32,147 bases of DNA, taken from positions 1 to 32,147 of the forward strand of contig JAUNPV010000019.1 of NCBI GenBank assembly GCA_030536515.1. Reading direction: 5' to 3'. The stretch's first letter is position 1. Each line of letters opens with the position of its first letter. Below are positions 4,369 through 21,270 of this stretch, piece by piece. A model generated the notes under the pieces. The model made no database searches. It was not told the DNA's origin and saw only the letters and a program-made list of their open reading frames with translations. This stretch comes from Eubacteriales bacterium. GTDB lineage: Bacteria; Bacillota; Clostridia; Oscillospirales; Oscillospiraceae. A program made the position numbers and the translations under genes.

Positions 4369-4376
4369 TTGACGCA

Positions 4377-4606
4377 CCAAAATACCTTCCCCCGGGGGGA
4401 AGGTGGCAAAGGCCGACGTAAGTCGGACTTTGACGGATGAGGAATGCGGGCGGGGAGGCTGGATGTTGTAGCCGTCAGTGCTTGCTGAATGGTAAATGAA
4501 CCTGCCAGCAAGCACGAACCGATACCACAGTTAAGGTTACTTCCCGCATTCCTCATCCGCCCCAGTGTGCGCACTGGGGCACCTTCCCCCCGGGGGAAGG
4601 TTTTGG
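4377..4606. repeat. Family A palindromic repeat element, copy 1
   Basis: Both ends read CCAAAA...CCTTCCCCC followed by the reverse complement of the G/C run, which makes terminal palindromes within terminal inverted repeats of about 26 bp. Inside each end sits a variable hairpin, then the constant box CGGATGAGGAATGCGGG (left) and its complement (right), then an unrelated centre. Left hairpin arms are CCGAC/GTCGG; the right hairpin is CCCCAGT/ACTGGGG. There is no coding capacity. It fills most of the space between mnmE and the sigma operon. Confidence 0.85.
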
Positions 4607-4661
4607 GGTGCGGTGCTATTTTTAGAATAAACAAAAATTTTTCCTTTTTTTCAAAAATCCA

Positions 4662-4686
4662 TGCAACCAACTCCTGATTCTTCCGT
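4662..4686 (+). promoter_or_regulatory. ECF-type promoter of the sigma/anti-sigma operon
   Basis: TGCAACC (4662-4668), then CGTG from 4684, gives AAC-N16-CGT, the pattern known for ECF sigma autoregulated promoters. The predicted start near 4694 leaves a leader with AAGGAGGGG before the ATG at 4722. This suggests autoregulation by a sigma factor of the operon; no vegetative promoter is evident at this position. Confidence 0.45.
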
Positions 4687-4721
4687 GTATATAGATATAG
4701 AAGAAAAAAGGAGGGGACTTG

Positions 4722-5123
4722 ATGAATCAGTGTCGGTATCCGGGCGTCGAAGGCGGCGACCGGTGTTTTACCATCGTCTATAACATTTTGTCCAACAAGG
4801 AAAATACCCGCCAGGGTGTCAGCGGCACCTGGCTTGCCGCCTGGAACGCCGTGCCGCCGTGGCATTTGGGGAGCCTTCTGAAACGGCCCGCCCACCGGTC
4901 GGTTCCGGCGGACCGGCAGGCGGCCCTTTGCCTGAGCCTTCGCCGGTTTGTGGACGGCCTGTCGGAGAACGAGCGGCAGGCGTTTCTGCGGCGGTACTGG
5001 TATCTGGACTCCACCGCCGAGATGGCGGCGCAGATGGGGGCCTCCGAACGGAAAATCAAAACAATGCTCATGCGCACCCGGGGCAAGCTCCGGGCGGAGC
5101 TGGAAAAGGAGGGTCTGCTATGA
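4722..5123 (+). CDS. Truncated sigma-70-family factor (region 4 intact, region 2 degenerate)
   Basis: A 133-aa paralogue of the 185-aa sigma factor encoded downstream at 7057. The C-terminal region 4 (about residues 80-133, including RRYWYLDS and the shared end RAELEKEGLL) is well preserved. The N-terminus lacks roughly 20 residues. In the region-2 segment the conserved acidic residues of the full paralogue are replaced (DAEESVSD becomes NTRQGVSG), and the linker is shortened by about 30 residues. The start is the ATG at 4722, preceded by AAGGAGGGG; a TTG at 4719 is less likely. Its stop overlaps the next start as ATGA. It may be a decaying copy, or a shortened regulator able to bind DNA or the anti-sigma but poorly able to bind core polymerase; the second is inference. 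Confidence 0.75.
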   Translation: MNQCRYPGVEGGDRCFTIVYNILSNKENTRQGVSGTWLAAWNAVPPWHLGSLLKRPAHRSVPADRQAALCLSLRRFVDGLSENERQAFLRRYWYLDSTAEMAAQMGASERKIKTMLMRTRGKLRAELEKEGLL

Positions 5124-7036
5124 CAGCGCTGGAACTGCTGGAAGCCATTGGCGACGTAAACGGAGCCTACATTCTGGAGGCCCAGTCCGTCCGGGAGCCC
5201 CGGCCCCGCCGCCGAACTTCAAAATGGAAAATCCTCATTTTAGCGGCTGCCATGGCCCTGCTGCTGTCGGGCTGCGCCTATGCGGTGCTGAAGCTCCAGG
5301 ATTTGCAGCTGGGTCAATGGACCCCCAACCCGGTGTTTATGGACGAAACCGAGCGGGACAAGCCCCATCCCAGCCGGGATGTGATTTCCCTCCACGGCTT
5401 TGCCGGGTCCCCCGGGTTCCAGGCTCTCCAGGAATGGCTGGAATTCAAAAACACCTATGACACCGACGAGAGCGGGCAGAACAATTATTCATCCCCGGAG
5501 GCCTACCGCTCATTTTTCTGCTTCAATCAGGAAATGCAGGACAAGGTAGATGAACTCTGCCAGAAATACGGTCTCAATCTCCCCGGTCGCAGCATAATCT
5601 CCTATGATGCCGAGGGCGATTTGTTCCCCTCTGTGGGCATTTCCAGCATTCTCCGGGAGGATGCCGCCGTTATCTACACGTTTGAGGGTGCCGGGACTTA
5701 CTTCCAGAGCGGCAACTTCCACTTGCCCGGGAAGCTGACCCTTACAGATTCTGCCTGGACCAGCCCCTTTGTCTATTTCTTCTCCTATACCAGCAAGGAC
5801 TGCTTTGACGGCAACTTCATGTCCGTCGGCAGCATTGACAGCTTCCAGCAATGGACGTACACCGCTTCCGATGGCACGCCCCTGCTGCTGGCTGTAAGCC
5901 CAGAATCCTGCCTGGTGCTGGCGGACCGGGGCAACGCCGTGATTTCCATTACCGTCTGCTATCCAATCTGCGGTGAGACCGTATTAGGTGACGAACCCAT
6001 GACCCATGCGGCTCTGGAAGCCTTTGCAGACTGCTTTGATTACAGCATAAAGCCCCTGGGCATTGGCCGGACTTACCCCGGCTATGCAGAATTTTTGACC
6101 GGGCTGTGCCCCGCCCCCACGGAAAACGACCTCTATCTTCTCAGGGACCTGGACGGGGACGGCAGCGACGAGCTGCTGGTGACCCACAACGGCAGCTTCA
6201 GCCTGGTGCTGACCATGGAAAATGACCGGGCGAAGATTGTCTACTTCGCCCCGGACCTGTGGCTGTCCGGCGATGTGATTCTGGACAACACCTACGTCCA
6301 GGAGGGCCAGGAAATCTACCGGATGCTTGCCTTCCGGGAGGGCCGGTTCGAATACGAGAATTACATCGAAAACAGTGTCCTCAAGGAGGGCTGGGGCAAA
6401 AGCGCCGCCCTGGGGGACAAGCCCTATTGGGAGGTCCCCATCACCGCCGACGAGGCCTGGGGCATCATCAACAGCTATGAGCTCCGCCAGCCCCGGTGGT
6501 TCCCGGTGGCAGACTTCCCCGGCTTTGCCGGTGCACCAATTGCGGTGACGGAGGAACCAACCTTCCCGGAGGCCCTCACCCCGGAGGAGCTGGGCCGTGC
6601 GGCGGAAACGGACCTGGAATTCTATCTGGAGGGCCAGCCCACCGCCACCGCCGCCCAGCTGTTCATCGGCCAGGGCTACTCCCTGTACGTCAACCACACC
6701 GACTGGTTCCTGGAGCAGTCCGAGAACACCGACCTGTGGACCAGCGAGTATAACCCCGATGTGCAGCTGGCCGTCACCTTCTACCCCGGCCTGGATGCCG
6801 AGGACACCCACCGGGCAATCAGGGACCGGGAATCCGACTACCAGCTGGGTGCGGACAAGCGGGGCGGCCTGAACGGTCTGAGTCAGGACCGGGTGATGCA
6901 GCTGAGCATCGCCATTTATGAAACCGACAGCGGCACCTTCGCCGTGTCCTGCCGCTACCCCATGGCAGCAGCCGAGGGCTTTGGAACCCGGCTGTCGGTG
7001 ATGGCCGACACCTTCGAGCTTTGGCCGGAATCGTAA
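5120..7036 (+). CDS. Predicted membrane-anchored anti-sigma factor with large extracellular region (anti-sigma A)
   Basis: A 638-aa protein coupled by ATGA overlap to the truncated sigma gene. Residues 1-35 are a short cytoplasmic segment rich in L, E and R (LLEAIGDVNGAYILEAQ), followed by a hydrophobic stretch at 38-51 ending in LLSGC with Cys52, a perfect lipobox. The extracellular part opens with VISLHGFAGSPGF, a motif shared with the second anti-sigma here. Residues 343-352 (DLDGDGSDEL) resemble a calcium-binding Asp-rich loop of FG-GAP/VCBS type. The remaining ~280 residues match no domain I recognise. The anti-sigma role is inferred from position after a sigma gene, the N-in topology and the shared N-terminus; no zinc-finger motif is present. 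The frame is open upstream, but the ATG at 5120 fits the coupling. Confidence 0.75.
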   Translation: MTALELLEAIGDVNGAYILEAQSVREPRPRRRTSKWKILILAAAMALLLSGCAYAVLKLQDLQLGQWTPNPVFMDETERDKPHPSRDVISLHGFAGSPGFQALQEWLEFKNTYDTDESGQNNYSSPEAYRSFFCFNQEMQDKVDELCQKYGLNLPGRSIISYDAEGDLFPSVGISSILREDAAVIYTFEGAGTYFQSGNFHLPGKLTLTDSAWTSPFVYFFSYTSKDCFDGNFMSVGSIDSFQQWTYTASDGTPLLLAVSPESCLVLADRGNAVISITVCYPICGETVLGDEPMTHAALEAFADCFDYSIKPLGIGRTYPGYAEFLTGLCPAPTENDLYLLRDLDGDGSDELLVTHNGSFSLVLTMENDRAKIVYFAPDLWLSGDVILDNTYVQEGQEIYRMLAFREGRFEYENYIENSVLKEGWGKSAALGDKPYWEVPITADEAWGIINSYELRQPRWFPVADFPGFAGAPIAVTEEPTFPEALTPEELGRAAETDLEFYLEGQPTATAAQLFIGQGYSLYVNHTDWFLEQSENTDLWTSEYNPDVQLAVTFYPGLDAEDTHRAIRDRESDYQLGADKRGGLNGLSQDRVMQLSIAIYETDSGTFAVSCRYPMAAAEGFGTRLSVMADTFELWPES

Positions 7037-7056
7037 GATAGAAAGGAGAGAGAACC

Positions 7057-7614
7057 ATGGAAGACAACGCCATTGTGGATTTATACTGGGACCGCAGCGA
7101 GGAAGCCATTTCCCAGTCGGCCGTGAAATACGGCGGCTACTGCTATTCCATCGCCTATAACATTCTGACCAGCAACGAGGATGCCGAGGAAAGCGTCAGT
7201 GACACGTGGCTGGCCGCCTGGAACGCCATGCCGCCGAGGCGGCCCTCCGTCCTCGCCACCTTTTTAGGGAAGCTCACCCGCCACCTGTCCATCGACCGCT
7301 GGCGGGAGCGCCACGCCGCCAAGCGGGGCGGCGGGGAGATGGTTTTGGCTCTGGAGGAGCTGGCGGGCTGCGTGTCCGGCAGCGGCACCCCCGAGGATGC
7401 CCTGCGCCAAAAGGAGCTGCGCCGGTGCTTAAACCGGTTTCTGGCAGCCCTGCCCGATGCCGAACGCCAGGTGTTTCTGGGCCGGTACTGGTACTTAGAC
7501 TCCGTGTCCCAGGTTGCCGAGCACATGGACTTTTCCGAAAGCAAGGTCAAGTCCATGCTCCTGCGCATCCGGGGCCGCCTGAGGGCCGAGCTGGAAAAGG
7601 AGGGTCTGCTGTGA
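7057..7614 (+). CDS. Sigma-70-family RNA polymerase sigma factor (ECF-like)
   Basis: A 185-aa two-domain sigma factor. Region 2 covers about residues 20-90, with YCYSIAYNIL and the acidic DAEESVSDTWLAAWNAMPP segment, then LTRHLSIDRWRERHA (regions 2.3-2.4). Region 4 covers about 125-180, with LPDAERQVFLGRYWYLDS and the helix-turn-helix DFSESKVKSMLLRIRGRL. This type is common in gut Clostridia and is normally followed by a membrane anti-sigma gene, as here: the stop overlaps the next start (GTGA). AAAGGAGAG precedes the ATG. It lies 20 bp after anti-sigma A, so the whole block 4722-10297 is probably one transcript. Which genes it controls cannot be seen; its own operon promoter is a candidate. 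Confidence 0.92.
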   Translation: MEDNAIVDLYWDRSEEAISQSAVKYGGYCYSIAYNILTSNEDAEESVSDTWLAAWNAMPPRRPSVLATFLGKLTRHLSIDRWRERHAAKRGGGEMVLALEELAGCVSGSGTPEDALRQKELRRCLNRFLAALPDAERQVFLGRYWYLDSVSQVAEHMDFSESKVKSMLLRIRGRLRAELEKEGLL

Positions 7615-9353
7615 CTTCCCTGCAACTGCTGAACGCCATCGGCGATATTGAAAGCAAATACATCCTGGAGGCCCAGGCCGTCCGGGTCCCCCGGCCCCGC
7701 CGCCGGGCATCCAAATGGAAGGTGCTGCTCATCGCCGCCGCCATGGCCGTCCTGCTGGCGGGCTGCACCTATGCGGTGCTGAAGCTCCAGGACCTGAAAA
7801 TTGACGAATACACCCCCACCGTCCCCAATCGGGAAAATGCTGCCCACGATGTCATCTCCCTCCAGGGCTACGCCGGGTCCCCGGGGTATCTGGCCGCCAA
7901 GGAGTGGCGGGCATTTAAGGCGGGCCTGGACCCGGAGGGTCAGCCCGGCTTCCAGGCAGCGGACGAATACTACGCCTACAGCTGCACCAGCCAGGAAATG
8001 GTGGACAAGGTGGACGTGCTCTGCGAAAAATACGGTTTACAGCTGCTGGGCCAGTCGGTCCACCGGGAGCTGAGCCATTATGAGCTTTTCCCGGCCCTGG
8101 GCATTGAGGACATTTTCCGCCCCGGCAGCACTCTGGAAACCGCCCTCACCGGGGGCTACTACTACACCGACGGCAGCTTCCAGCTCAGCGGCACCGCCAA
8201 ATTTACCGAAGAAGCCGCCGACTGGCCCTACCCCATGGACTTCCGGCTGCGCTGTGTGAAAAAGCAATCCTTCGACGCCGCCTGCCTGGACATCGGCCAA
8301 ATTGCGGACTACGACCAGTGGGAATATACCGCCGCCTCCGGCCAGAACGCCCTGCTGGCCCTGGGACCTGCCTACGGCCTGATTCTGGTGGACAACGGGG
8401 ACAGCTTTCTCACCGTGGCCATTCTCAACGCCCACGTGGAGGACGGTCTCAACGGGGCGCAGCAGATGACCCGGGAGAATCTCCAGGCTCTGGCGGATGA
8501 TTTTGACCTGCGCTTAAAAACCTCCCCCGTCCCGGACCTTCCCCGGAAAACCCAGGAAAGCGACCGGTACATGACGGTTCTGGGCTTGGACCCCCAGGAA
8601 TTTGAGGGCACCCGCCTGGTCTGCGGCGGCAGGACCTACGTCTTCCGGGCCCCCACCGCCGGCATTGGCTTTGAATCCAGCGAATATCTGGGGGTGCTCA
8701 GCTATGACCCGGAGTATCCTGCCAACGACCTGACCACCGACAGCACCGTCATCCACGGAGCCCAGGTGACCCGCCTGACCGGCGGCAGCCTGGGGGACGC
8801 CCTGCTGGTTGGCCCGGAGATTGGGCGGAAGCTGCTCTACGTCCCGGAGGATGTCCGGTATTCCAGCGACTTTGAATATCTGGAAAACGGCGACGGCACC
8901 ATCACCCTCACCAAATACCGGGGCGACGCCTCCTATCTGGAGCTGCCCAGCCAGATTGACGGCAAGGCCGTCACCCGCATCGGCCACATCGGCCAGACCG
9001 GGGACGGTGCCTTTAGCTGCAATCCCCATCTGGTAGAGCTGGTGATTCCCGAGGGGGTGACATTGGTGGACGACTGCACCTTCTGGGGCTGCTACCGTCT
9101 GCGAACCGTCCGCTTCCCCGCCAGCCTCACGGGGCTGGGCCACTCGGTTTTCAACGAGTGCCCCATGCTCACGGACCTGTGGTTTGAGGGCAGCGCCCCG
9201 GCCCACGGCAATTACCTGTTCGATTTCTACCCCCAGGACCTGGGCCTGCCCAAGGTGAAGCTCCACTATTACCAGGGAACCGCCGGCTGGGAGGGCGACA
9301 GCCTGTGGAGCAATTTTGAGCACAACGTCACCGAAAAAGGAGAAACGGAATGA
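7611..9353 (+). CDS. Predicted membrane anti-sigma factor fused to a BspA-type leucine-rich-repeat module (anti-sigma B)
   Basis: A 580-aa protein starting at GTG, overlapping the sigma stop codon. The first ~310 residues parallel anti-sigma A: LLNAIGDIESKYILEAQ, a basic patch (R25-K37), a hydrophobic stretch ending in LLAGC with Cys52, then VISLQGYAGSPGY. From about residue 321 it differs from A and carries a module also found in the adjacent lipoprotein: a domain with GGRTYVF and NDLTTD, then ENGDGTITLTKY and BspA-type (LRR_5) repeats such as LVELVIPEGV and LRTVRFPASL, ending in APAHGN. BspA-type repeats usually serve in binding at the cell surface. The protein therefore looks like a chimera of an anti-sigma and its neighbour. 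Sensing by the repeat module is inference. Confidence 0.8.
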   Translation: MTSLQLLNAIGDIESKYILEAQAVRVPRPRRRASKWKVLLIAAAMAVLLAGCTYAVLKLQDLKIDEYTPTVPNRENAAHDVISLQGYAGSPGYLAAKEWRAFKAGLDPEGQPGFQAADEYYAYSCTSQEMVDKVDVLCEKYGLQLLGQSVHRELSHYELFPALGIEDIFRPGSTLETALTGGYYYTDGSFQLSGTAKFTEEAADWPYPMDFRLRCVKKQSFDAACLDIGQIADYDQWEYTAASGQNALLALGPAYGLILVDNGDSFLTVAILNAHVEDGLNGAQQMTRENLQALADDFDLRLKTSPVPDLPRKTQESDRYMTVLGLDPQEFEGTRLVCGGRTYVFRAPTAGIGFESSEYLGVLSYDPEYPANDLTTDSTVIHGAQVTRLTGGSLGDALLVGPEIGRKLLYVPEDVRYSSDFEYLENGDGTITLTKYRGDASYLELPSQIDGKAVTRIGHIGQTGDGAFSCNPHLVELVIPEGVTLVDDCTFWGCYRLRTVRFPASLTGLGHSVFNECPMLTDLWFEGSAPAHGNYLFDFYPQDLGLPKVKLHYYQGTAGWEGDSLWSNFEHNVTEKGETE

Positions 9354-10297
9354 AAAAGCTGAGTTTACTCTTGATTTTTGCCTTGTTTTTAACCGGCTGC
9401 GGTCAAAAGGAGGCCCCCGTCACCGACCCGCCCGCCCCCACGGTGGAGATTGTGGCCAGCCGGTTTTCAGCCCAGGAGACACGCCAGCGCTATTTGGGCG
9501 ACTGGGGCGTGGACATTGGCCAGTATCAGGACGCCGTTTTGCACTATGACGGCAGGACCTACCGCTTCTTCTCCCCCACCGGTGCCCTGGGGTACACCGC
9601 CCGTGACCCGGAAAACAGCCTGGGCCGCCTGGTCTACGACCCCTCCGCTGTTGCCGACGACCTGACCACCGACCGGCCCGAGTGGGACGATGCCTACGTC
9701 TGGCACGTCACCGGCGGGGCCTGCGAGGATGGGCTGCTCCTGGACGCCGGGCTGTACTGCACCTTCCTGTTCACCGCCGGGGAGCCGGAGGAGGGTCCTC
9801 GGTACGACTACACCGAAAACGGCGACGGCACCATCACCATCACCCGGTACTACGGGACCCAGGCCCATCTGGCGGTTCCCTCGGAAATCGACGGCAAAAA
9901 GGTCACCGCCATCGGGGATGTGGAGGACCTGGGGGCCTTCTCCTACCGGCCCTCCCTGGTCACCGTCACCCTGCCGGAGGGGGTGGAGACGCTCAGCTCC
10001 TTCACCTTCGATTCCAGCTACCGGCTGGAAACCGTGTACTTCCCCTCCACCTTAAAGGAAGTGGGCCACGCCGTGTTCAACAACTGCCCGGTGCTGACGG
10101 CCCTCTACTTTGAAGGCCCCGCCCCGGCCCACGGCAACCGGGTGGTGGACCAAAGCGTAGACGGCCTGGACCTGGAAAACCCCAGGCAGTGGTACCCCAA
10201 GGGCCTGGACCCCAAGGACGTGAAGCTATACTACCACGAAAACACCCTGGGCTGGGCCCCCCAGGACTGGGAATTCTGCACCAAAATCCCCTATTGA
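9350..10297 (+). CDS. Lipoprotein with BspA-type leucine-rich repeats
   Basis: A 315-aa secreted lipoprotein: MKKLSLLLIFALFLTGC is a classic lipoprotein signal with lipobox LTGC. The mature part repeats the C-terminal module of the preceding anti-sigma B almost end to end: GRTYRFF, a DDLTTD segment, ENGDGTITITRYYG, VPSEIDGKKVTAIGD, LEGV/LPEGV-type repeats, and EGPAPAHGNR. The ATG overlaps the stop of anti-sigma B (ATGA), so it is the last gene of the operon. Its membrane-surface location next to a membrane anti-sigma carrying the same module suggests that both contact the same ligand or each other; that is inference. Confidence 0.85.
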   Translation: MKKLSLLLIFALFLTGCGQKEAPVTDPPAPTVEIVASRFSAQETRQRYLGDWGVDIGQYQDAVLHYDGRTYRFFSPTGALGYTARDPENSLGRLVYDPSAVADDLTTDRPEWDDAYVWHVTGGACEDGLLLDAGLYCTFLFTAGEPEEGPRYDYTENGDGTITITRYYGTQAHLAVPSEIDGKKVTAIGDVEDLGAFSYRPSLVTVTLPEGVETLSSFTFDSSYRLETVYFPSTLKEVGHAVFNNCPVLTALYFEGPAPAHGNRVVDQSVDGLDLENPRQWYPKGLDPKDVKLYYHENTLGWAPQDWEFCTKIPY

Positions 10298-10369
10298 AAG
10301 CCGGGGAGTTATTCGGTACAATATCACTGCACCCCGTAGGGCCTTGCCTGGAAAACTTTTAGCCGCTCT

Positions 10370-10545
10370 GTCATGGTTCGTATCGGCAAAAACTACAGAT
10401 TGTCATTGCGAACCAGCTCTCAAGCTGGTGTGGCAATCCGTTCTTTTTTCATTTTTCCAAAGGAAAAATGAACTGCTTGGTGCTATGCACCAAGCAGAGG
10501 GGATGCGGATTGCCACGCCAGTGTGAGCACTGGCTCGCAATGACA
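10370..10545. repeat. Family D inverted-repeat element, copy 1
   Basis: The core 10401-10545 begins TGTCATTGCGA and ends with its complement. Each end contains a hairpin (CCAGCTCTCAAGCTGG on the left, CCAGTGTGAGCACTGG on the right), then GGCAATCCG and its complement. Central hairpins include TTCATTTTTCC/GGAAAAATGAA and CTTGGTGC/GCACCAAG. The left flank from about 10370 is shared with the right flank of copy 2 at 16999-17030, so the repeat unit reaches beyond the core. There is no coding capacity. Confidence 0.85.
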
Positions 10546-10576
10546 ATACAGAGTTTTCGGCATTACACCCCAGTAG

Positions 10577-10688
10577 GGGAGGGTCACTGACCCTCCCGCC
10601 GAAAATCCGCCCAGGATTTTCGGATAACCCCAATGGGACTGAGCGTTTCAAAGGAACGCACCCAGCGGCGGCGTGAGGGCACGCCGCC
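10577..10688. repeat. Cluster of three hairpins
   Basis: GGGAGGGTCACTGACCCTCCC (10577-10597, transcribed as a perfect palindrome around its centre), an inverted repeat with arms CCGAAAATCC/GGATTTTCGG (10599-10623) and one with arms GGCGGCGTG/CACGCCGCC (10667-10688). The first also occurs at 14766, 18190, 21331 and 21481. Position downstream of the sigma operon would suit a transcript-end function, but there is no T-tract. Confidence 0.75.
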
Positions 10689-10705
10689 CTACAGTGTTTC
10701 CGCCC

Positions 10706-10745
10706 GCATTCCTCATCCGTCAGCTTCGCTGGCACCTTCCCCCCC
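10706..10745. repeat. Family A half element
   Basis: Only the right half of the family A layout is present: the box CCTCATCCG, a variable hairpin with arms CAGC/GCTG, and CCTTCCCCC. The left half and the closing G run are missing. Confidence 0.7.
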
Positions 10746-10768
10746 GTATGGTTTTTTGTGGGAATCGA

Positions 10769-10796
10769 TTGACTTTTCCCCGGATCGTGGTATGAT
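10769..10796 (+). promoter_or_regulatory. Promoter of the cysteine desulfurase gene
   Basis: TTGACT (10769-10774), 16 bp, TATGAT (10791-10796). The predicted start near 10803 puts the whole family E palindrome inside the mRNA leader. Confidence 0.65.
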
Positions 10797-10800
10797 TCTG

Positions 10801-10870
10801 TAGGGAACGGATTTATCCGTTCCGTTTGCGAACTGCGATAGATTCGGAACGGATGAATCCGTTCCCTACG
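10801..10870. repeat. Family E palindrome in the cysteine desulfurase leader
   Basis: The outer arms are TAGGGAACGGATT and its complement, ending CCCTACGGG. Each arm is itself a hairpin (GGAACGGAT/ATCCGTTCC), so the DNA or RNA can fold as one long stem or as two separate hairpins. It lies between the promoter and the start codon. Confidence 0.8.
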
Positions 10871-10901
10871 GGTTCATCAAAGTTTTGAAAGCGAGCAAAT
10901 T

Positions 10902-12029
10902 ATGATTTATTTAGACAATTCCGCCACCACCAAGCCCTGCCGGGAGGCGGTGGAGGCAGTAAATCTGGCCATGACCGATTCCTGGGGCAACCCCAGCGCG
11001 CTCTATGGCTTCGGCATTGATACCGCCCGGGCTCTGCGCACCGCCCGGGCGCAGGTGGCCGCCGCTCTGGGGGCCGAGCCGGACCGGGTGTTTTTCACCT
11101 CCGGCGGCACCGAGGCGGACAACTGGGCCGTTTTCGGCTCCGTCAAGCGTCTGGGCAAGCGGGGAAAGCACATCGTCACCACCGCCATGGAGCATCACGC
11201 CATTTTAAACTGCATGAAGGACCTGGAGGAACGGGGCTTTTCCGTCACCTATCTGCAGCCCGACGAGACCGGCACGGTGACCCTGGCCGCCCTCCGGGAG
11301 GCATTGCGGGAGGATACCATTCTGGTGTCCGTGATGATGGTCAACAACGAGGTAGGCTCCGTCCAGCCCATCGCCCAGATGGCCAAGCTCACCCACCGCC
11401 TCTGCCCCGACGCCATTTTCCACACCGATGCCGTCCAGGGCTTTTTGAAGGTGCCCTTCGCCGCCCGAACCCTGGGGGCGGACCTGATTTCCGTGTCCAG
11501 CCACAAGGTCCACGGCCCCAAGGGCTGCGGGGCGCTGTACGTCAGCCCCCGGCTCAAGTCCTTCCCGCCCCTGCTCTTAGGCGGCGGCCAGGAGGGGGGC
11601 TACCGCAGCGGCACCGAGGGGACCCCCGCCATTTTCGGCTTCGCCGCCGCCTGCGCCGCCGTGTCCGCCACCTTCCGGGCCGACGCCGCCCGGGAAAAGG
11701 CCATGGTGGAGGCCCTGGCGCAGAGGCTGGAAGCCCTGCCCGGCGTTGCCGTCAACGGCTGCCACGCCGCCCCCCACATTCTCTCCGTGGCGGTCCCCGG
11801 GGTTCCCACCCAGAATTCCATCAACCTTTTGCAGGACGCCGGCATCTGTGTCTCCGCCGGCAGTGCCTGCGCCAAGGGCCACCGCAGCCACGTCCTCACC
11901 GCCATGGGCCTGCCCCCGGAAACCATCGACGCCACCTTCCGCATCTCCCTGAGCCGGGACACCACACAAGAGGAGCTGGATAAGCTATGTGAAGTCATCC
12001 GGGACGATATTCTACCAAGGGCAAGATAA
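10902..12029 (+). CDS. Cysteine desulfurase (NifS/IscS family)
   Basis: A PLP enzyme of 375 aa that takes sulfur from cysteine, leaving alanine, and passes it as a persulfide to iron-sulfur cluster or tRNA thiolation machinery in the cytoplasm. The PLP lysine is K202 in SSHKVHGPKG; the cofactor-binding TDAVQ region precedes it. The sulfur-carrying cysteine is C323 in SAGSACAKG. The N-terminus MIYLDNSATTKP is typical of the family, as is TSGGTEADNWAV. The ribosome binding site (GAAAGCGAG) is weak. No iscU, thiI or mnmA gene is adjacent, so the pathway it serves cannot be told from context. It stands as a single gene between repeat-filled spacers. Confidence 0.95.
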   Translation: MIYLDNSATTKPCREAVEAVNLAMTDSWGNPSALYGFGIDTARALRTARAQVAAALGAEPDRVFFTSGGTEADNWAVFGSVKRLGKRGKHIVTTAMEHHAILNCMKDLEERGFSVTYLQPDETGTVTLAALREALREDTILVSVMMVNNEVGSVQPIAQMAKLTHRLCPDAIFHTDAVQGFLKVPFAARTLGADLISVSSHKVHGPKGCGALYVSPRLKSFPPLLLGGGQEGGYRSGTEGTPAIFGFAAACAAVSATFRADAAREKAMVEALAQRLEALPGVAVNGCHAAPHILSVAVPGVPTQNSINLLQDAGICVSAGSACAKGHRSHVLTAMGLPPETIDATFRISLSRDTTQEELDKLCEVIRDDILPRAR

Positions 12030-12038
12030 CCGCTGTAC

Positions 12039-12281
12039 CAATACCTTCCCCCGGGGGGGAAGGTGGCAGGGCGTAAGCCCTGACGGATGAGGGATGGCGT
12101 GCATTTATTGCTTGAAGCATCTGACGGTAGTGCATACAGGACCCGACCTGTCGCCATCCCTCATCAGTCACCAGTCTGCGGACTGGTGACAGCTAATGAA
12201 TTAAGGAACGATTGCCACCGGCAATCGTTCTATTTTTATCTGCTGCGCAGAGCACCGCCCCCGGGGGAAGCTATTGGGCTG
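12039..12281. repeat. Family A element, copy 2, interrupted by a family B unit
   Basis: It starts with CCTTCCCCC and the G run, a hairpin with arms CAGGGC/GCCCTG, and GACGGATGAGGGATGGCG. The right side has the complement GCCATCCCTCATC, the hairpin CACCAGT/ACTGGTG, then a family B unit at 12193-12256 where CTTC would be expected, and the final CCCCCGGGGGAAG. Confidence 0.8.
12193..12256 (-). mobile_element. Family B double-hairpin unit, copy 1
   Basis: A 64-bp unit from CTAA to GAGCACC with a hairpin CGATTGCC/GGCAATCG, an AT-rich link, and the self-complementary CTGCGCAG. It sits inside family A copy 2 next to the terminal G/C run. Same ends and layout as the copies at 12338 and 21166. Strand was assigned arbitrarily relative to the copy at 21166. 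Confidence 0.7.
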
Positions 12282-12320
12282 GTGGATGGTTTTGGATAGC
12301 GGAAAGATTTTTACCGTCAC

Positions 12321-12459
12321 CGTAGGGGAGGGTCACTCTAAATTTAGGTGCGATTGCCACTGGCAATCGCATATTTTTAATCTGCTGCGCAGAGCACCAC
12401 CCTCCCGTCGGCCCCCGGCGAGGGGGCCGCAATCGGCTTTCCTTATTGGAAAGCCGATT
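12321..12459. repeat. Family C element, copy 1, interrupted by a family B unit
   Basis: It reads CCGTAGGGGAGGGTCACT, then an insert, then ACCCTCCCGTCGGCCCCC, a GGCCCCC/GGGGGCC hairpin, and AATCGGCTTTCC/GGAAAGCCGATT. Uninterrupted copies lie at 14759 and 21324. The insert splits the first hairpin precisely. Confidence 0.85.
12338..12398 (-). mobile_element. Family B double-hairpin unit, copy 2, inserted in family C
   Basis: A 61-bp unit with the same ends (CTAA...GAGCACC), the hairpin GCGATTGCCA/TGGCAATCGC and CTGCGCAG. Comparison with the intact family C copies shows clean interruption of the first palindrome, with only one base of the target replaced. Confidence 0.75.
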
Positions 12460-12468
12460 CAGCCAACT

Positions 12469-12498
12469 AGGCACGTCCGGGAGGCCGTGCCCTACGGG
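12469..12498. repeat. Family F hairpin, copy 1
   Basis: GGCACGTCCGGGAGGCCGTG followed by CCCTACGGGG. Other copies lie at 14653-14720 and 19779-19843, each also ending in CCCTACGGG. Confidence 0.7.
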
Positions 12499-12518
12499 GT
12501 GGTGCAAAATTTGCAGCG

Positions 12519-12800
12519 CACCCCAATACCTTCCCCCGGGGGGAAGGTGGATTGCCCGAAGGGCAAGACGGATGAGGAATGCGGGCGGTATGGCTGGACG
12601 ATGGAAACGTTCGTGCTTGCTGAATGGTATATTCTACCTGCCAGCAGGCACGGACCTGTACTGCACGTTAAGTTACTGCCCGCATTCCTCATCCGCCCCA
12701 GTGTGCGCACTGGGGCACCTTCCCCCCGGGGCTGCGCAGCCGTTGCAGCTTTAGCTGCTTACGGATGCGGCGTCCCCCTTGCGGGGGGAAGGTTTTGGGG
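12519..12800. repeat. Family A element, copy 3, with a foreign insert in its right palindrome
   Basis: Left end CCTTCCCCC plus G run, hairpin TTGCCC/GGGCAA, box ACGGATGAGGAATGCGGGCGG. Its centre (GTGCTTGCTGAATGGTA...CCAGCA) resembles the centre of copy 1. The right box and the CCCCAGT/ACTGGGG hairpin follow. The right palindrome is split at about 12731-12784 by a different short hairpin-rich segment containing CTGCGCAG and GCAGCTTTAGCTGC. Confidence 0.8.
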
Positions 12801-12817
12801 CTGGTCTGACATGATAC

Positions 12818-12845
12818 AAAAAAGCAGCCGTTTCCGGCTGCTTTT
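12818..12845 (-). terminator. Intrinsic terminator after the DUF2812 gene
   Basis: A hairpin with arms AAAAGCAGCCG/CGGCTGCTTTT and loop TTTC; read on the minus strand it ends in a run of six T, directly after the stop codon at 12848. Confidence 0.85.
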
Positions 12846-12847
12846 CT

Positions 12848-14248
12848 TTATTTCCCCAACTTTTCCCCCACAATTCCCATCTGCTCTGCCGTTGGCTCCC
12901 AGTCTAGGGTAAGCTCCACCAGGGTGCGGTTGTAGCACAGGAGGTATTTGTCCAGATAGCCGCTGCTCCAGTAGACCCGGTAGGCCTCCTCTGCGCCCCA
13001 GGGGGCGGGGTCCACCGGCTCGTAGCGGTCCACCAGAATGCCGCCGTCGTATACCTGGTCCTTCCGCTCGGACAGCAGCTGCTCCCGGCAGAAGCCGTAG
13101 AGCCAGGGCAGCTTCACCTCGGTGACGGTGTAGCTGAGGCTGGGCAGCTCCTGAAAATGGGGCGCATCCAGCCGGGGCCGCTGCTGCATGGTCAACCGGG
13201 CCAGCAGCGGGGATTCGTCCCCGGTTTTCCGGCGGTTATATTCCTCCGGATGCTGCACCGCCGTCAGGTCCTCCACCGTCAGGGGCAGCTTGTCCCGGTA
13301 GACCGAGAAGGTGCTGCCCCGGTATTCGTAGGTCTCCCGTTCCCCCTCAAAGAGCCCTGCATTGCTGGCGTGAATCAGGGTGAAGATCCCTCCCGCCACC
13401 AGGGCGAAGGCGATGACGAAGGACAGGCCCAGGGTCAAGGCCCTGTTCCAGTTTGCGCTGACCTTCCTCTTTTTGAGATAGGTTTTGAGGCCGAACACCG
13501 TGGCGAAGATCAGCCCATGCACCCCCACTATCACCGCCGTTACCCACAGGGCCATAGACGGGGCCTTTCTCAGAAAGCTCCCCAGCCAGAGGGCCATCCC
13601 CACCAGCAAAACCCACAAAATCCACCGTTGCAGCCGGGAGGTCCCCCGTGTTTCCAGGAAAATTCCCTCCCGGGCCTCCCTTCTCGCCCGATAAAGCCAG
13701 TGATAGTAGCAGCCCAGCTCCCCGGCGCACAAAATCAGCAGCAGCCCCCAGGCGAAAAGGGGGAACATATCTGTCACGCTGGACAGCAGCTCCAGAGGCT
13801 TGTCAAACAGGCTGGATACCCCCAGGGCCAGATTCATGGCAGACACCGCCAGCAGAACGAAATAGGAGGTCAAGAAGCTCTTTTTCGCCGTTTTGTGGAG
13901 GTTCTCCACCTCCAGCTCCGGGTCGGTCTCGATGGGCACCGGGTTTTCCCGGACGTTGCTGAAGATTTGCAGCTGGCCGGAGCAGGCGGCCAGCTCCCAG
14001 CCGGTGTGGCGGCAGAAATCCTGAAATTCCCGCTGCTCCTCGGTCATATCCGGGTCATACTCCGAGGCGCTGGGAAAATAGCTGACTGCGAAACGGACCC
14101 GCCGGGGCTGGATTTTCCGGTAGACCCAGCCGAAGGCCCCCATTTTTTCCAGCATCCAGCCCTTTTCCGCCATGCGCTCCAAATGCCGCTCCATGCCGGT
14201 GCGGTCGTAAAAGGAAAATACCTCAAATCTGCGTTTTTTGTCTTTCAT
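12848..14248 (-). CDS. DUF2812 domain-containing membrane protein
   Basis: A 466-aa protein. The N-terminal ~110 residues form the DUF2812 domain (MKDKKRRFEVFSFYDRTGME, EKGWMLEKMGAFGWVYRK, EFQDFCRHTGWE), which is typically encoded next to a PadR regulator. It is followed by four or five hydrophobic segments between about 135 and 305 and a soluble C-terminal domain with STFSVYRDKLPLTVEDL and YNRTLVELTL. The ATG at 14248 overlaps the PadR stop (ATGA), so the in-frame extension upstream is rejected. The biochemical role of the family is unknown to me; such pairs are often induced by envelope stress or drugs, but that is not shown here. Confidence 0.88.
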   Translation of the reverse strand: MKDKKRRFEVFSFYDRTGMERHLERMAEKGWMLEKMGAFGWVYRKIQPRRVRFAVSYFPSASEYDPDMTEEQREFQDFCRHTGWELAACSGQLQIFSNVRENPVPIETDPELEVENLHKTAKKSFLTSYFVLLAVSAMNLALGVSSLFDKPLELLSSVTDMFPLFAWGLLLILCAGELGCYYHWLYRARREAREGIFLETRGTSRLQRWILWVLLVGMALWLGSFLRKAPSMALWVTAVIVGVHGLIFATVFGLKTYLKKRKVSANWNRALTLGLSFVIAFALVAGGIFTLIHASNAGLFEGERETYEYRGSTFSVYRDKLPLTVEDLTAVQHPEEYNRRKTGDESPLLARLTMQQRPRLDAPHFQELPSLSYTVTEVKLPWLYGFCREQLLSERKDQVYDGGILVDRYEPVDPAPWGAEEAYRVYWSSGYLDKYLLCYNRTLVELTLDWEPTAEQMGIVGEKLGK

Positions 14249-14565
14249 AGTCCGTCCTCCCCAAAAATCGCCCGGTAGTCCCGGGCCTGGGCGTTGAGCC
14301 GGGCGTATTCCCGATCCAGCATCGCCCGTCCCCTGTCCGTCAGGACATAGCTGCGCTTTCGGCCCTCCACCCGGGTCTCCCGGATAAAGCCCTCCTGGGT
14401 AAACTGCTCCAGCAGGTTGTACAGCGTCCCGGAGCCAACGCTGACCCGCCCGCCGGTCATGTCCGGCACCCGGTCCAGAATATCCATGCCGCAGCACTCC
14501 TGCCGCAGACACAGCAGAATGTAAAACATCTGCTCCGTCAGCGTCTGAAATTTCACCCTGGCCAT
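14245..14565 (-). CDS. PadR-family transcriptional regulator
   Basis: A 106-aa winged-helix repressor. The first 75 residues show the PadR pattern: LTEQMFYILLCLRQECCGMDIL, then VGSGTLYNLLEQFTQEGFI with the recognition helix, and a wing TRVEGRKRSYVLTDRG. The family uses a C-terminal helix for dimer formation; here it is short. The start is the ATG at 14565, with AGGAGG (14573-14578) upstream; the frame is open further but would run into the operator. It is the first gene of a two-gene operon with DUF2812 and almost certainly represses itself through the palindromes just upstream. Confidence 0.93.
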   Translation of the reverse strand: MARVKFQTLTEQMFYILLCLRQECCGMDILDRVPDMTGGRVSVGSGTLYNLLEQFTQEGFIRETRVEGRKRSYVLTDRGRAMLDREYARLNAQARDYRAIFGEDGL

Positions 14566-14581
14566 GGCATCGCCTCCTATT

Positions 14582-14634
14582 CTCGATAATCGAGATTGTG
14601 CCTTTATTTTAATCTCGATTATCGAGTTTGTCAA
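14582..14634 (-). promoter_or_regulatory. Promoter with two PadR operator palindromes
   Basis: On the minus strand TTGACA (14629-14634), 17 bp, TAAAAT (14606-14611). The palindrome CTCGATTATCGAG (14614-14626 as written on +) fills the spacer between -35 and -10. A second one, CTCGATAATCGAG (14582-14594), lies just after the transcript start. Binding at the first would block RNA polymerase directly, which indicates autorepression of the padR-DUF2812 operon. Confidence 0.8.
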
Positions 14635-14652
14635 GAATTTTTTTAGGTGCCC

Positions 14653-14720
14653 ACGTAGGGCCCTGCATCCTTGACGGGCCGCAGCCAGAAAGGCACGTCT
14701 AGGAGGCCGTGCCCTACGGG
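14653..14720. repeat. Family F element, copy 2
   Basis: Begins ACGTAGGGCC, contains TTGACGGGCCGC and the hairpin GGCACG...CGTGCC, and ends CCCTACGGG. The same order is found at 19779-19843. Confidence 0.7.
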
Positions 14721-14758
14721 TGGTGCAAATTGGGGGGCGGGGGAAAGTTTTCGCCGCA

Positions 14759-14841
14759 CCCGTAGGGGAGGGTCAGTGACCCTCCCGTCGGCCCCCGGCG
14801 AGGGGGCCGCAATCGGCTTTCCTTATTGGAAAGCCGATTCA
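14759..14841. repeat. Family C element, copy 2 (intact)
   Basis: Three hairpins in series: GGGAGGGTCAGTGACCCTCCC (14766-14786), GGCCCCC/GGGGGCC, and AATCGGCTTTCC/GGAAAGCCGATT. It starts with CCCGTAGG, the complement of the CCTACGGG end of families E and F. Confidence 0.85.
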
Positions 14842-14891
14842 GTATCGTTTACCGTTCAGCAGGTACGGACGTTTCTATCATCCGACGTTTC

Positions 14892-14948
14892 CGCCCGCAT
14901 TCCTCATCCGTCACGGCTACGCCGTGCCACCTTCCCCCCGGGGGAAGG
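14892..14948. repeat. Family A half element
   Basis: Right half only: CGCCCGCATTCCTCATCCG, hairpin CACGGC/GCCGTG, and the complete terminal palindrome CCTTCCCCCCGGGGGAAGG. Confidence 0.75.
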
Positions 14949-14961
14949 CTTTTTCCGCACC

Positions 14962-15087
14962 TGTAGGGGAGGGATATCATCCCTCCCGCTGATTTGCCCT
15001 GGGCAAATCAGGCGGCGCAAGCCACAGCACCGTGAAGCGGCCCCCTCGCCGGGGGCCGACGGGCGGGTTCATAACCCGCCCCTACAG
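14962..15087. repeat. String of hairpins upstream of gdhA, with an inverted piece of family C
   Basis: From TGTAGGGGAGGG to CCCCTACAG: hairpins GGGAGGGATATCATCCCTCCC-like, CTGATTTGCCC/GGGCAAATCAG, and GGCGGGTT/AACCCGCC. The segment GCGGCCCCCTCGCCGGGGGC (from about 15038) is the exact complement of the middle hairpin of family C copy 2, so part of C is present here in reverse. Nothing coding is visible in 14635-15130. Confidence 0.7.
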
Positions 15088-15130
15088 AGCCGTTTTTTCA
15101 AAGGACGCTCAAAAAATTTTTCATACCCTC

Positions 15131-15159
15131 TTGTATTCTCCCGCGCATTCTGCTACAAT
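15131..15159 (+). promoter_or_regulatory. gdhA promoter
   Basis: TTGTAT (15131-15136), 17 bp, TACAAT (15154-15159) with a TG extension one base before the -10. Confidence 0.65.
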
Positions 15160-15170
15160 ACGCCTATTGA

Positions 15171-16532
<1,362 letters not shown>

Positions 16533-16551
16533 CGTTTGATTCGCACTGCAG

Positions 16552-16573
16552 GGCGGCCTGCCCTCAGGCCGCC
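16552..16573 (+). terminator. Hairpin after gdhA
   Basis: Perfect 9-bp stem GGCGGCCTG/CAGGCCGCC with loop CCCT, 20 bp past the stop codon. There is no T-tract, so terminator function is uncertain. Confidence 0.45.
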
Positions 16574-16618
16574 GCAGCGCCAGGTGATACAAGCAGCTGA
16601 AATTGACGCAAAAAATAA

Positions 16619-17030
16619 TGTCATTGCGAGATAAGTCCTCAGACTGGCGTGGCAATCCGCATCCCCTCTGGCTGGCCCGTTGGGCCAGCCAGTTCATTTT
16701 TCCAAAGGAAAAATGAACTGTGCTTATCGGCTTAACGCAGCAAGAGCGCAATTCAAAGGCTTCTCCTTGAGGAGAAGCTGTCATAGACCCCGTCAGGGGG
16801 CTATGACTGATGAGGTGTTTTCCCAGTATGAACAACTGAAGTGGCGCAGTATATGCAGCGTGTACACACCTCATCCGTCACGGCTTCGCCGTGCCACCTT
16901 CCCCTCAAGGGGAAGGCTTTGCTGAGCTAACCCGATAAGCACAAAATGAAAAAGAGAACGGATTGCCACACCAGCTTGAGAGCTGGTTCGCAATGACAAT
17001 CTTTAGTTTTAGCCGATACGAACCACTACG
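16619..17030. repeat. Family D element, copy 2, carrying a nested family A element
   Basis: It starts TGTCATTGCGAGA and the matching end CGCAATGACA is at 16998; the flank to about 17030 equals the left flank of copy 1 in reverse. Compared with copy 1, which is inverted relative to this one, an extra segment at 16719-16943 separates the two halves. The remaining spacer to 17039 holds nothing else. Confidence 0.8.
16719..16943. repeat. Family A element, copy 5, nested in family D
   Basis: Outer 12-bp inverted repeats TGTGCTTATCGG (16719-16730) and its complement (16932-16943). Inside are the terminal palindromes GCTTCTCCTTGAGGAGAAGC and CCTTCCCCTCAAGGGGAAGG, which differ from other copies yet stay self-complementary. 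The variable hairpins have arms GTCATAG/CTATGAC and CACGGC/GCCGTG next to the constant TGATGAGGTGT and ACACCTCATCCG boxes. Confidence 0.8.
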
Positions 17031-17039
17031 GGCGTTCTG

Positions 17040-17453
17040 TCAGTCTTTTGCCCGCTCGTTTGTATCGATGCTGCCACGGAATACCACGTATTTATCGTAC
17101 AGGAACTCGGTGACGAAGTTCAGCACCATGTTCAGGACAGTCACCAGGTACTCGTTCCAGTAAAGGGTCCCCGTCAGATAATTGCCGCCGAAGGTGGTCA
17201 CCGGGGTGAACACCAGGTAGTATAGCCCCACCAGGGCCATGGCCTTGGGCACGTTGTTGGCCGACCGGAAGGTGTAGCAACGGTTCAGGGTGAAGTTCCA
17301 CAGCACCGACAGCACCAGGGCCGTCAGATAGTTGAACCAGTAGGGCAGGGCCGTCAGCTCCGTCAGCAGGGTGAAGGACAGAATTTGAATCACCCCTGCG
17401 CTGATGGAGAACAGGGTGAATTTCACCGCCCGAAAAAATTCCTTGTTTTTCAT
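17040..17453 (-). CDS. GtrA-family membrane protein
   Basis: A 137-aa protein with four predicted membrane segments, the usual GtrA size. Typical features are FSISAGVIQILSFTLLTEL in the first segment, ALVLSVLWNFTLNRCYTFR (the WNF-x-NRxxTF signature), and a last segment ending FLYDKYVVFR. GtrA proteins are thought to help flip or transfer lipid-linked sugars for cell-wall or glycan decoration. The ATG at 17453 has AGAGG upstream; a longer in-frame extension overlaps the kinase gene in another frame and is rejected. It starts 14 bp after the P-loop kinase gene and is probably cotranscribed with it, though no functional link is apparent. No glycosyltransferase is adjacent. Confidence 0.9.
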   Translation of the reverse strand: MKNKEFFRAVKFTLFSISAGVIQILSFTLLTELTALPYWFNYLTALVLSVLWNFTLNRCYTFRSANNVPKAMALVGLYYLVFTPVTTFGGNYLTGTLYWNEYLVTVLNMVLNFVTEFLYDKYVVFRGSIDTNERAKD

Positions 17454-17467
17454 AAGTACCTCTTTCC

Positions 17468-17971
17468 TCATCTCAACGTGTTTAGAAATGCCGCCACCTG
17501 GCGGCGGTTTTTCAGGATGATGACCCGGACGTGTTCCGCTTTTTTTAGCAGCTCCAGCAGTTCGGGCCGGTTGTCCCGGTTGAAATTCCAGACCCACTGA
17601 AAAAACTCCCAGTCGATTTGCTCCGGGCAGTTGGGGGACATATCCGGCCTGGTTTTGCCCCGGTTGGTCAGGAATCGTTTGAAAATCCCGGCCAGGCACT
17701 GCCGCCGGGGGAAGTCCAGGTAAATGGCCGTGTCGCACGCTTCCAGCCGCTTTGGGATGGTGCGGCTGTAGTTGCCGTCGATAATCCACCGGGGCTTCTG
17801 GACCTCCGCCTGCACAGTAGCGTCGAATTCCTCCCGGGAGATATGCTGCCAATTATCCCGCCACCAGATTTTATCCAGATGCACCACCGGGATGCCGGTC
17901 CGCTCCCCCATCGCCCGGGCCAGAGTGGACTTCCCCGCCCCGCCGCAGCCTAAAATAATAATCCGCTCCAT
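17468..17971 (-). CDS. P-loop nucleotide kinase-like protein (FlaR/topology-modulation type)
   Basis: A 167-aa cytoplasmic protein with Walker A motif GCGGAGKST (residues 8-16), followed by the adenylate-kinase-like VVHLDKIWW and WIIDGNYSRTIPKRLEACD. The LDFPRRQCLAGIFKRFL segment and the aromatic EFFQWVWNF are characteristic of the group often annotated as DNA topology modulation protein FlaR. That name comes from old genetics; the true substrate is unknown, and a nucleoside or small-molecule kinase is more likely. First gene of a two-gene unit with gtrA. GAGGGAGAT precedes the ATG. Confidence 0.85.
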   Translation of the reverse strand: MERIIILGCGGAGKSTLARAMGERTGIPVVHLDKIWWRDNWQHISREEFDATVQAEVQKPRWIIDGNYSRTIPKRLEACDTAIYLDFPRRQCLAGIFKRFLTNRGKTRPDMSPNCPEQIDWEFFQWVWNFNRDNRPELLELLKKAEHVRVIILKNRRQVAAFLNTLR

Positions 17972-18008
17972 ATCTCCCTCCCTGTCGAATCCGTAATCTC
18001 ACCGTCAT

Positions 18009-18173
18009 AAAACCTTCCCCCGGGGGGAAGGTGTCAGTGAAGCTGACGGATGAGGAACGGCGATATCTGAATCACTGTATGCACCACACGAAATGCGTAC
18101 TTTGTCCAACATTTCGCCATTCCTCTTCCGACCTCGCTATCGCTCGGCCACCTTCCCCCCGGGGGAAGGTTTT
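18009..18173. repeat. Family A element, copy 6
   Basis: Ends AAAACCTTCCCCC and GGGGGAAGGTTTT. Left hairpin arms are CAG/CTG in GTCAGTGAAGCTGAC, followed by GGATGAGGAACGGCG. On the right CGCCATTCCTCTTCCG is followed by an imperfect hairpin (CCGA...TCGG) and the terminal palindrome. It lies between the kinase operon and proS. Confidence 0.8.
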
Positions 18174-21150: not shown

Positions 21151-21270
21151 CCTTCCCCCGGGGGTGGTGCTCTGCGCAGCAGATTAAAATAGAACGATTG
21201 CCGGTGGCAATCGCTCCTTGATTCGTTAGGTGCCCCAGTGCGCACACTGGGGCGGATGAGGGATACGGGC
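21151..21270. repeat. Family A half element interrupted by a family B unit
   Basis: CCTTCCCCCGGGGG, then family B at 21166-21229, then the hairpin CCCCAGTGCGCACACTGGGG and the box CGGATGAGGGATACGGGC. The opposite half is missing. Confidence 0.75.
21166..21229 (+). mobile_element. Family B double-hairpin unit, copy 3
   Basis: 64 bp from GGTGCTC to TTAG, in the reverse orientation to copies 1 and 2. It contains CTGCGCAG, the AT link and CGATTGCCGGTGGCAATCG. It again abuts the terminal G run of a family A element. Confidence 0.7.

Follow-up and report, generated by a model that had tools for sequence, protein, structure and literature searches.

A high-copy family of inverted palindromic repeats with unlike hairpins, resembling REPINs, in a gut bacterium and in other phyla

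Known palindromic repeats and the plan of family A

REPINs are described, in the available text of PMC3116915, as extragenic inverted doublets with predicted single-stranded DNA hairpins, compensated base changes and excision of the doublet. The REPs tagged by CGTC (dRS3, RPE-4 and RPE-6) have, according to the available text of PMC3733652, no dedicated transposase and form head-to-head dimers, among which heterodimers are common and go unexplained; the word "Firmicutes" occurs 0 times in that text. Intergenic palindromic repeats of Rhizobiales include RIME in Rhizobium and Bru-RS in Brucella (available texts of PMC2573895, PMC2267715 and PMC2266754). The family treated here, which we call family A, is likewise palindromic in Rhizobiales, and the Rhizobium genomes searched hold its unit, a likeness to RIME and Bru-RS drawn by description only. 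These two repeats presumably have a CCTCATCCGG/ACCTTCTCC look. In integron attC sites, a folded single strand is recognised and the stem sequence is free. Family A may share this mode of recognition; by eye, no GTTRRRY-type attC box was noticed in it.

Family A was studied in a window (the whole stretch of DNA analysed) that is an entire contig of 32,147 bases, from the 2.63 Mb draft genome (98% complete) of a gut bacterium. It is an inverted dimer of one unit, which is made up, in order, of a terminal palindrome (CCTTCCCC-GGGGAAGG), a variable self-complementary hairpin and a GGATGAGG box, the boxes facing each other across a centre. The five complete copies and three halves listed by the first-pass annotation are all present, with coordinates and ends corrected (Table 1). 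The copy placed at 16719 exists, with a true span of 16759-16917 inside a GTCATTGCGA-type element. The arm pairs quoted for the variable hairpins were correct, and the figure of seven unrelated arms proved too low once the strings of relatives were included. The flank consensus CGCACCCCAATA was rejected as the true end of the element, as it is missing from many copies. Palindromic inserts of ~50-65 bases lie repeatedly inside the terminal palindromes (~12195-12256, 12732-12782 and 21165-21228, and 16015-16074 in locus L444), and are perhaps a site-specific element that targets this palindrome.

Table 1. Copies of family A in the window
Feature	Position	Strand	Description
Complete copy 1	4385..4600	.	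palindrome to palindrome
Copy 1, left half			palindrome 4385-4404; hairpin GGCAAAGGCCGAC-GTAA-GTCGGACTTTGAC 4405-4434; box GGATGAGG 4435-4442
Copy 1, right half			minus-strand box 4551-4558; hairpin GCCCCAGT..ACTGGGGC 4559-4580; palindrome 4581-4600
Complete copy 2	12044..12272	.	short-centre class, box to box 79 bases
Copy 2, hairpins			CAGGGC-GTAA-GCCCTG and GTCACCAGT..ACTGGTGAC
Copy 2, insert	~12195 to 12256		interrupts right terminal palindrome
Complete copy 3	12529..12792	.	hairpins TTGCCC-GAA-GGGCAA and CCCCAGT..ACTGGGG
Copy 3, insert	~12732-12782		~50 bases, within right terminal palindrome
Complete copy 4	16759..16917	.	left terminal palindrome differs: CTTCTCC..GGAGAAG
Copy 4, hairpins			GTCATAG..CTATGAC and CACGGC-GAA-GCCGTG (minus strand)
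Copy 4, setting	16620-16997		centre of a different, GTCATTGCGA-type element
Complete copy 5	18013..18169	.	left hairpin GTCAGTGAAGCTGAC
Copy 5, right side			hairpin GGCCGAGC-GATA-GCGAGGTC (minus strand), tandem G.A mismatch; variant box GGAAGAGG (minus strand)
Half copy	10700..10749	-	box, hairpin CAGC-GAA-GCTG, truncated terminal palindrome
Half copy	14892..14948	-	box, hairpin CACGGC-GTA-GCCGTG, terminal palindrome
Half copy	21151..21261	+	truncated palindrome, insert, hairpin CCCCAGTG..CACTGGGG, box GGATGAGG

BLAST of the copy at 4377 against its own genome gave 83 matching pieces. In the window and 30 stretches round the BLAST matches, anchors identified 107 half-units, a few of them truncated or chance coding matches, and 43 inward pairs. 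Once pairs more than 200 bases apart or with a truncated hairpin were excluded, there remained 39 inward dimers with two intact hairpins and boxes less than 200 bases apart. The box-to-box spacing is 115-126 bases in 30 of these 39, with a second class at 78-79. Family A is thus a short, high-copy palindromic unit in inverted doublets that are mostly extragenic, yet 12 of the 39 lie inside a call of our crude ORF caller.

By analogy, it is REPINs that family A works most like: both are short extragenic inverted doublets with predicted single-stranded hairpins, compensated changes and excision of the doublet, this last being putative for family A (available text of PMC3116915). The first-pass remark that no described system was known to have this plan went too far, since palindromes in inverted doublets that vary in a compensated way are of the REP/BIME/REPIN kind (available texts of PMC3116915 and PMC3733652). 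Unlike REPINs, family A is without GTAG, has two palindromes per half, bears different stems in its two halves and occurs in several carriers without a RAYT. At the hairpin foot GTAG is absent, the hairpins lying between AAGGT or AAGCT and (G/T)GATGAGG, and a cognate RAYT gene flanked by a family A repeat was not found in 38 PF01797 neighbourhoods; because this tag and a flanking RAYT were looked for without success, we do not class family A as a GTAG REP. Family A is like the CGTC-tagged REPs in its head-to-head heterodimers and in that no dedicated transposase was found for it; some of its stems are preceded by CGTC and end in CCA on the CCTCATCC strand. The pattern of CGTC (or TGTC/CCTC) by the stem with a CCA tail was seen at the CACGGC and TTGCCC stems, but not at the CCCCAGT and CCGAGC stems. 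CGCC or CGAC replaces CGTC at other stems, unlike in those REPs, and their feature of A and T as the first two stem pairs is absent from the family A strings.

Pairing, folding strand and loops of the hairpins

Units were identified by anchors (GGGAAG[GC]T, 10-46 bases of any kind, GATGAGG, plus an upstream CTTC arm) that require no hairpin structure, and the 39 of 309 units without the upstream arm were excluded from the pairing, loop and mismatch counts. Of the 78 own-genome units, 74 form a stem with 5 or more contiguous pairs; a single shuffle of every unit leaves 6 such stems, and a single arm swap leaves 18. Of the 192 units elsewhere, 144 form such a stem, and the two controls leave 13 and 15 respectively. 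When the limit is relaxed to 4 pairs, more of the control units pass (25 and 28 of 78; 50 and 45 of 192). The hairpins are paired far above arm-swapped controls, which supports the first-pass suggestion that selection acts on the structure or that a copying mechanism generates it, and the folding strand can moreover be named (see below). Unpaired copies, which would have spoken against it, are few: 4 of the 78 own units fail the 4-pair test, as do 29 of 175 distinct hairpin strings, about half of these 29 with a tandem G.A mismatch (CGAG..CGAG). The predicted DNA fold of 4372-4612 has an energy of -95.9 kcal/mol (z -15.6). A presumed resemblance of CTGATGAGG to a hammerhead was dropped, since most copies read CGGATGAGG and Rfam gives no match.

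A double-stranded palindrome has no preferred strand. On the GGATGAGG strand of distinct hairpins, stem mismatches are nevertheless G.A/A.G in 117 cases versus C.T/T.C in 5, and G.T/T.G in 32 versus A.C/C.A in 4, in a census that excluded hairpins less than 60% paired in register (7 of 152 other and 0 of 27 own). Among the matches listed, Bifidobacterium shows the same bias (G.A versus C.T 34 to 2, G.T versus A.C 38 to 1), and the few mismatches of Rhizobiales are 4 to 0 for the first comparison and 7 to 7, without bias, for the second.

Most loops, when read on the GGATGAGG strand, take the form C-GNA-G or C-GNNA-G. These are unusually stable DNA loops; RNA prefers GNRA. Counted over strings whose stem has 3 or more pairs (main sets) or 4 or more (viral-contig set), the ratio of GNA to TNC loops is 7:1 in the own genome, which is not significant alone (P 0.07), 55:0 at other loci, mostly Firmicutes with a few Rhizobiales and Bifidobacterium strings, and 28:0 in viral-contig dimers. 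Among the matches listed it is 20:1 in Rhizobiales and 33:4 in Bifidobacterium, as distinct strings, with chance-looking coding strings kept, one overlapping row excluded and a few perhaps missed. Pooled four-base loops are GNNA in 54 and TNNC in 1, with GNYA in 37 and GNRA in 17 (P 0.009; the summed sets may share strings); the 7 GNNA loops of the own genome comprise 5 GNRA and 2 GNYA. As the hairpin strings are related, these figures are counts and not independent events, and loops may be inherited. The GGATGAGG strand is the strand kept foldable. Counting by strand in this way shows which strand, and perhaps which nucleic acid, folds: the pooled excess of GNYA over GNRA suits single-stranded DNA, the own genome (2 of 7) excepted, where the proportions fit RNA as well.

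The hairpins could instead be RNA-level elements, bidirectional terminators or stabilisers of mRNA 3' ends, selected in the transcript. The setting of the 39 own dimers, as far as our crude ORF caller resolves it, is compatible with this, 9 lying between convergent, 16 between tandem and 1 between divergent genes (with 12 inside an ORF call and 1 at an edge), and in some copies the terminal palindrome is followed by a run of Ts; RNA would equally accommodate G.A and G.T mismatches and the GNRA loops of the own genome. However, both halves were counted on their own box strand, and since one half is the complement in any transcript, a rule acting on transcripts should not follow the box. The predominance of GNYA in the pooled loops, the weakness of the divergent-gene depletion (P 0.077) and the lack of an Rfam match at the gathering score anywhere in the window (0 matches) also speak against this explanation, which we consider unlikely.

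Unlike hairpins in the two halves of a dimer

The two hairpins of a dimer differ. Identical hairpins occur in none of 147 inward pairs less than 200 bases apart with no unit between (all loci), 4 of which share the innermost 3-4 stem pairs, in none of the 72 dimers (23 own, 49 others) that have both their palindromes and in none of 38 viral-contig dimers, 2 of which share 9 bases; these three sets overlap. None of the 20 outward pairs of the all-loci set has identical hairpins either. Among the own-genome pairs, 0 of 39 are homotypic; random pairing predicts 10.3, and never gave fewer than 2 in 20,000 shuffles. Side-preserving permutation, with the side set by the centre, gave 0 of 30 against 4.7 expected (P 0.00065). 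The rule of unlike partners is not absolute. Among the matches listed, three outward-facing pairs of Rhizobium croatiense (C35, C44 and C52) carry identical hairpins, and two of its inward pairs have the CCC/GGG stem in common. The own genome holds a CCCCAGT/CCCCAGT pair (L016), 334 bases apart with another unit between, and so outside the 200-base limit.

In predicted DNA folds of 60 of the 72 dimers, 0.60 and 0.61 of the hairpin bases lie in local pairs and both hairpins form in 49 of the 60. When a matching hairpin was substituted in these 60 dimers, predicted local pairing fell to 0.00 and cross pairing was 0.998, i.e. one cross-stem.

A mutational origin would have template switching in quasi-palindromes keep the arms complementary without selection, while recombination between copies shuffles hairpin types. 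Some arms indeed differ over the entire stem and others by the swap of one pair (CACGGC, CACGCC, CAGGGC, CCCGGC), and of 30 pairs, 22 have the CCCCAGT type on one side of the centre and 4 have it on the opposite side. Such a process predicts perfect palindromes, however, and not G.A and G.T mismatches kept on one strand, nor does it predict unlike stems in the two halves; we find it improbable.

The explanation that we favour, with a probability of roughly one half, is that family A is a non-autonomous mobile repeat of the REP/REPIN kind acting via single-stranded hairpins, its unlike stems being kept by selection against cross-pairing. When the locus becomes single-stranded, as during replication, each half would fold into its own local hairpin. 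The hairpin would be recognised by its shape, loop and flanking box and not by its stem sequence, and the stems could therefore drift while staying paired. A dimer with matching stems would form one long cross-stem and be either unrecognised or destroyed by hairpin nucleases, and by such loss or non-recognition the stems would stay different. For REP dimers, a preference for heterodimers has been noted with "no obvious explanation", and protection from SbcCD-type enzymes proposed (available text of PMC3733652). Our reading of the unlike stems is a sharper form of that suggestion, and offers a testable answer to the question, left open in the available text of PMC3733652, of why heterodimers are preferred. 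A literature word search, in which some queries were unspecific and subscription papers lay outside the scope, returned no paper describing the family A unit; within the literature searched, the strand-and-loop rule and the unlike-partner rule were not found in print in this form.

Probable movement, spread and the search for an enzyme

Two Gemmiger genomes, ATCC 27749 and MCC627, align over long regions at 78-93% identity. At site 1, the only site with both junctions readable (region identity 80-93%), MCC627 lacks an entire dimer, from terminal palindrome to terminal palindrome, and at this one clean empty site no target-site duplication, a feature of MITEs of DDE transposons, is visible. At site 3 a unit is missing in one genome together with flanking sequence. 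At sites 2 and 4 one genome retains a solo palindrome, and its arms correspond to the two outer arms of the dimer in the other genome. The arms of the solo palindrome at site 4 mismatch (GCCTTC/GAAGCC), as do the left and right ends of the dimer, and because of this parallel we read the palindrome as a scar and not as a target. In a second region, a dimer stands opposite a different repeat in one intergenic slot, and a 60-base insert lies within a terminal palindrome. Movement is suggested by this comparison of two genomes.

In the studied genome mnmE occupies 3007-4368. A full mnmE was present in 21 of the 22 congeners searched; judged by eye, the slot after it holds no element in 17 of the 21, a GTCATTGCGA element in 1, other sequence in 2 and, in G008 (1 of 21), a dimer like those of family A whose hairpins are different and whose boxes read GGAAGAGG. 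The copies are therefore not always at orthologous positions without sign of movement, the case that had been named as evidence against mobility: Gemmiger dimers are present or absent, and the mnmE slot varies. By eye, a cysteine desulfurase gene comes directly after mnmE in 17 of the 21 congeners. In the own genome a NifS-like gene lies at 10902-12029, 6.5 kb from mnmE, with three long ORFs between (4369-10901); the ORFs at 4859-7036 and 7206-9353 match no NCBIfam model. At another locus downstream of mnmE (L197), a cousin of the same plan has other constant boxes (GAGGGAGCT, hairpin GCCGAGCGAAGCGAGGC, TGAGGGAG).

Beyond the own genome, the unit is present in further Clostridia and in Selenomonadaceae, Bifidobacterium and Rhizobiales. 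In ten genomes, which are carriers by choice since they were picked from earlier matches, GAAGGT N10-40 GGATGAGG has 51 and 62 matches in two Rhizobium, 36 in a Rhizobiales MAG, 40 in a Bradyrhizobium MAG, 96 in B. simiarum, 64 in B. callimiconis, 37 in a Selenomonas, 70 in a Selenomonadaceae MAG, 107 in Gemmiger formicilis and 37 in Pseudoflavonifractor phocaeensis, a few of them chance coding strings; the reversed pattern has 0-2 matches per genome. The copy at 4377 has DNA matches in 22 of 60 relatives, and among 391 genomes of the class a strict dimer pattern matched 15, a count that includes the own genome and one probable chance match. The dimer pattern also occurs in 57 stretches of viral contigs, which could be genuine phage or host flank.

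The own genome, 60 relatives and the 10 named carriers were searched for PF01797 (Y1/RAYT). Family A could consist of REPINs of the ordinary kind, driven by a RAYT that has since been lost or that escaped notice in this draft genome, and the doublet plan, extragenic position and compensated variation are as in REPINs (available text of PMC3116915). RAYT-like proteins are present in the genus, where Y1-type genes occur in 14 of 19 genomes with the element versus 4 of 17 without (P 0.007), an association that favours RAYTs there. On the other hand, PF01797 was found neither in the own genome, which is 98% complete, nor in 5 of the 10 named carriers, those with 51-96 anchor matches each, nor in 5 of the 19 carrier congeners (58-85% complete drafts). 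Neighbourhoods were read for 38 of the 48 + 8 listed PF01797 matches; only 2 of the 38 contain a stem-bearing unit (L229 and L219), neither unit flanking the gene, and the hairpin foot is without GTAG. We judge this alternative quite unlikely, and Y1/RAYT was dropped as the general partner, the genus association remaining; RAYTs may help in some genera and not be needed everywhere, unless the copies are relics. At L232 a PF01797 gene is followed, 8 bases on, by a bare GGATGAGG that has neither the palindrome nor the hairpin of the unit.

The earlier proposal of a transposase carrying the same ends found no candidate among PF01797 genes or between inward units. An autonomous parent might show up as an ORF enclosed by inward units; with 300-2500 bases between the units and an ORF of at least 100 residues, six such spans emerged, including one in the window, and none of these ORFs, judged from their first 70 residues without a family search, was recognised as a transposase. 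Coming back to the hairpin-based reading, one might speculate, more tentatively, that family A belongs to a cross-phylum superfamily of single-stranded DNA hairpin elements, recognised by their shape and GNA-type loop and not by stem sequence, with two hairpins kept mutually orthogonal, which would be moved by an enzyme other than Y1/RAYT or by a hairpin-processing activity of the host; we hold this broader idea to be doubtful. Defined substrates could serve to hunt for the enzyme that acts on this widespread bacterial repeat.

Two further repeats share the window. The first, GTCATTGCGA..hairpin..TGGCAATC, forms inverted pairs (10402-10544 and 16620-16997) and is much like the CGTC-tagged REPs; at 10402-10544 its paired hairpins differ (CCAGCT/AGCTGG versus CCAGTG/CACTGG). 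The second has GTAGGG at its foot and a long palindrome of the GGGAGGGTCACTGACCCTCCC type (10573, 12322, 14762, 14963, 21327 and others). It may be the partner of a RAYT, since a palindrome around GGCGGGGTCATGACCCCGCCCTACGG stands at the end of the RAYT-like gene at L232.
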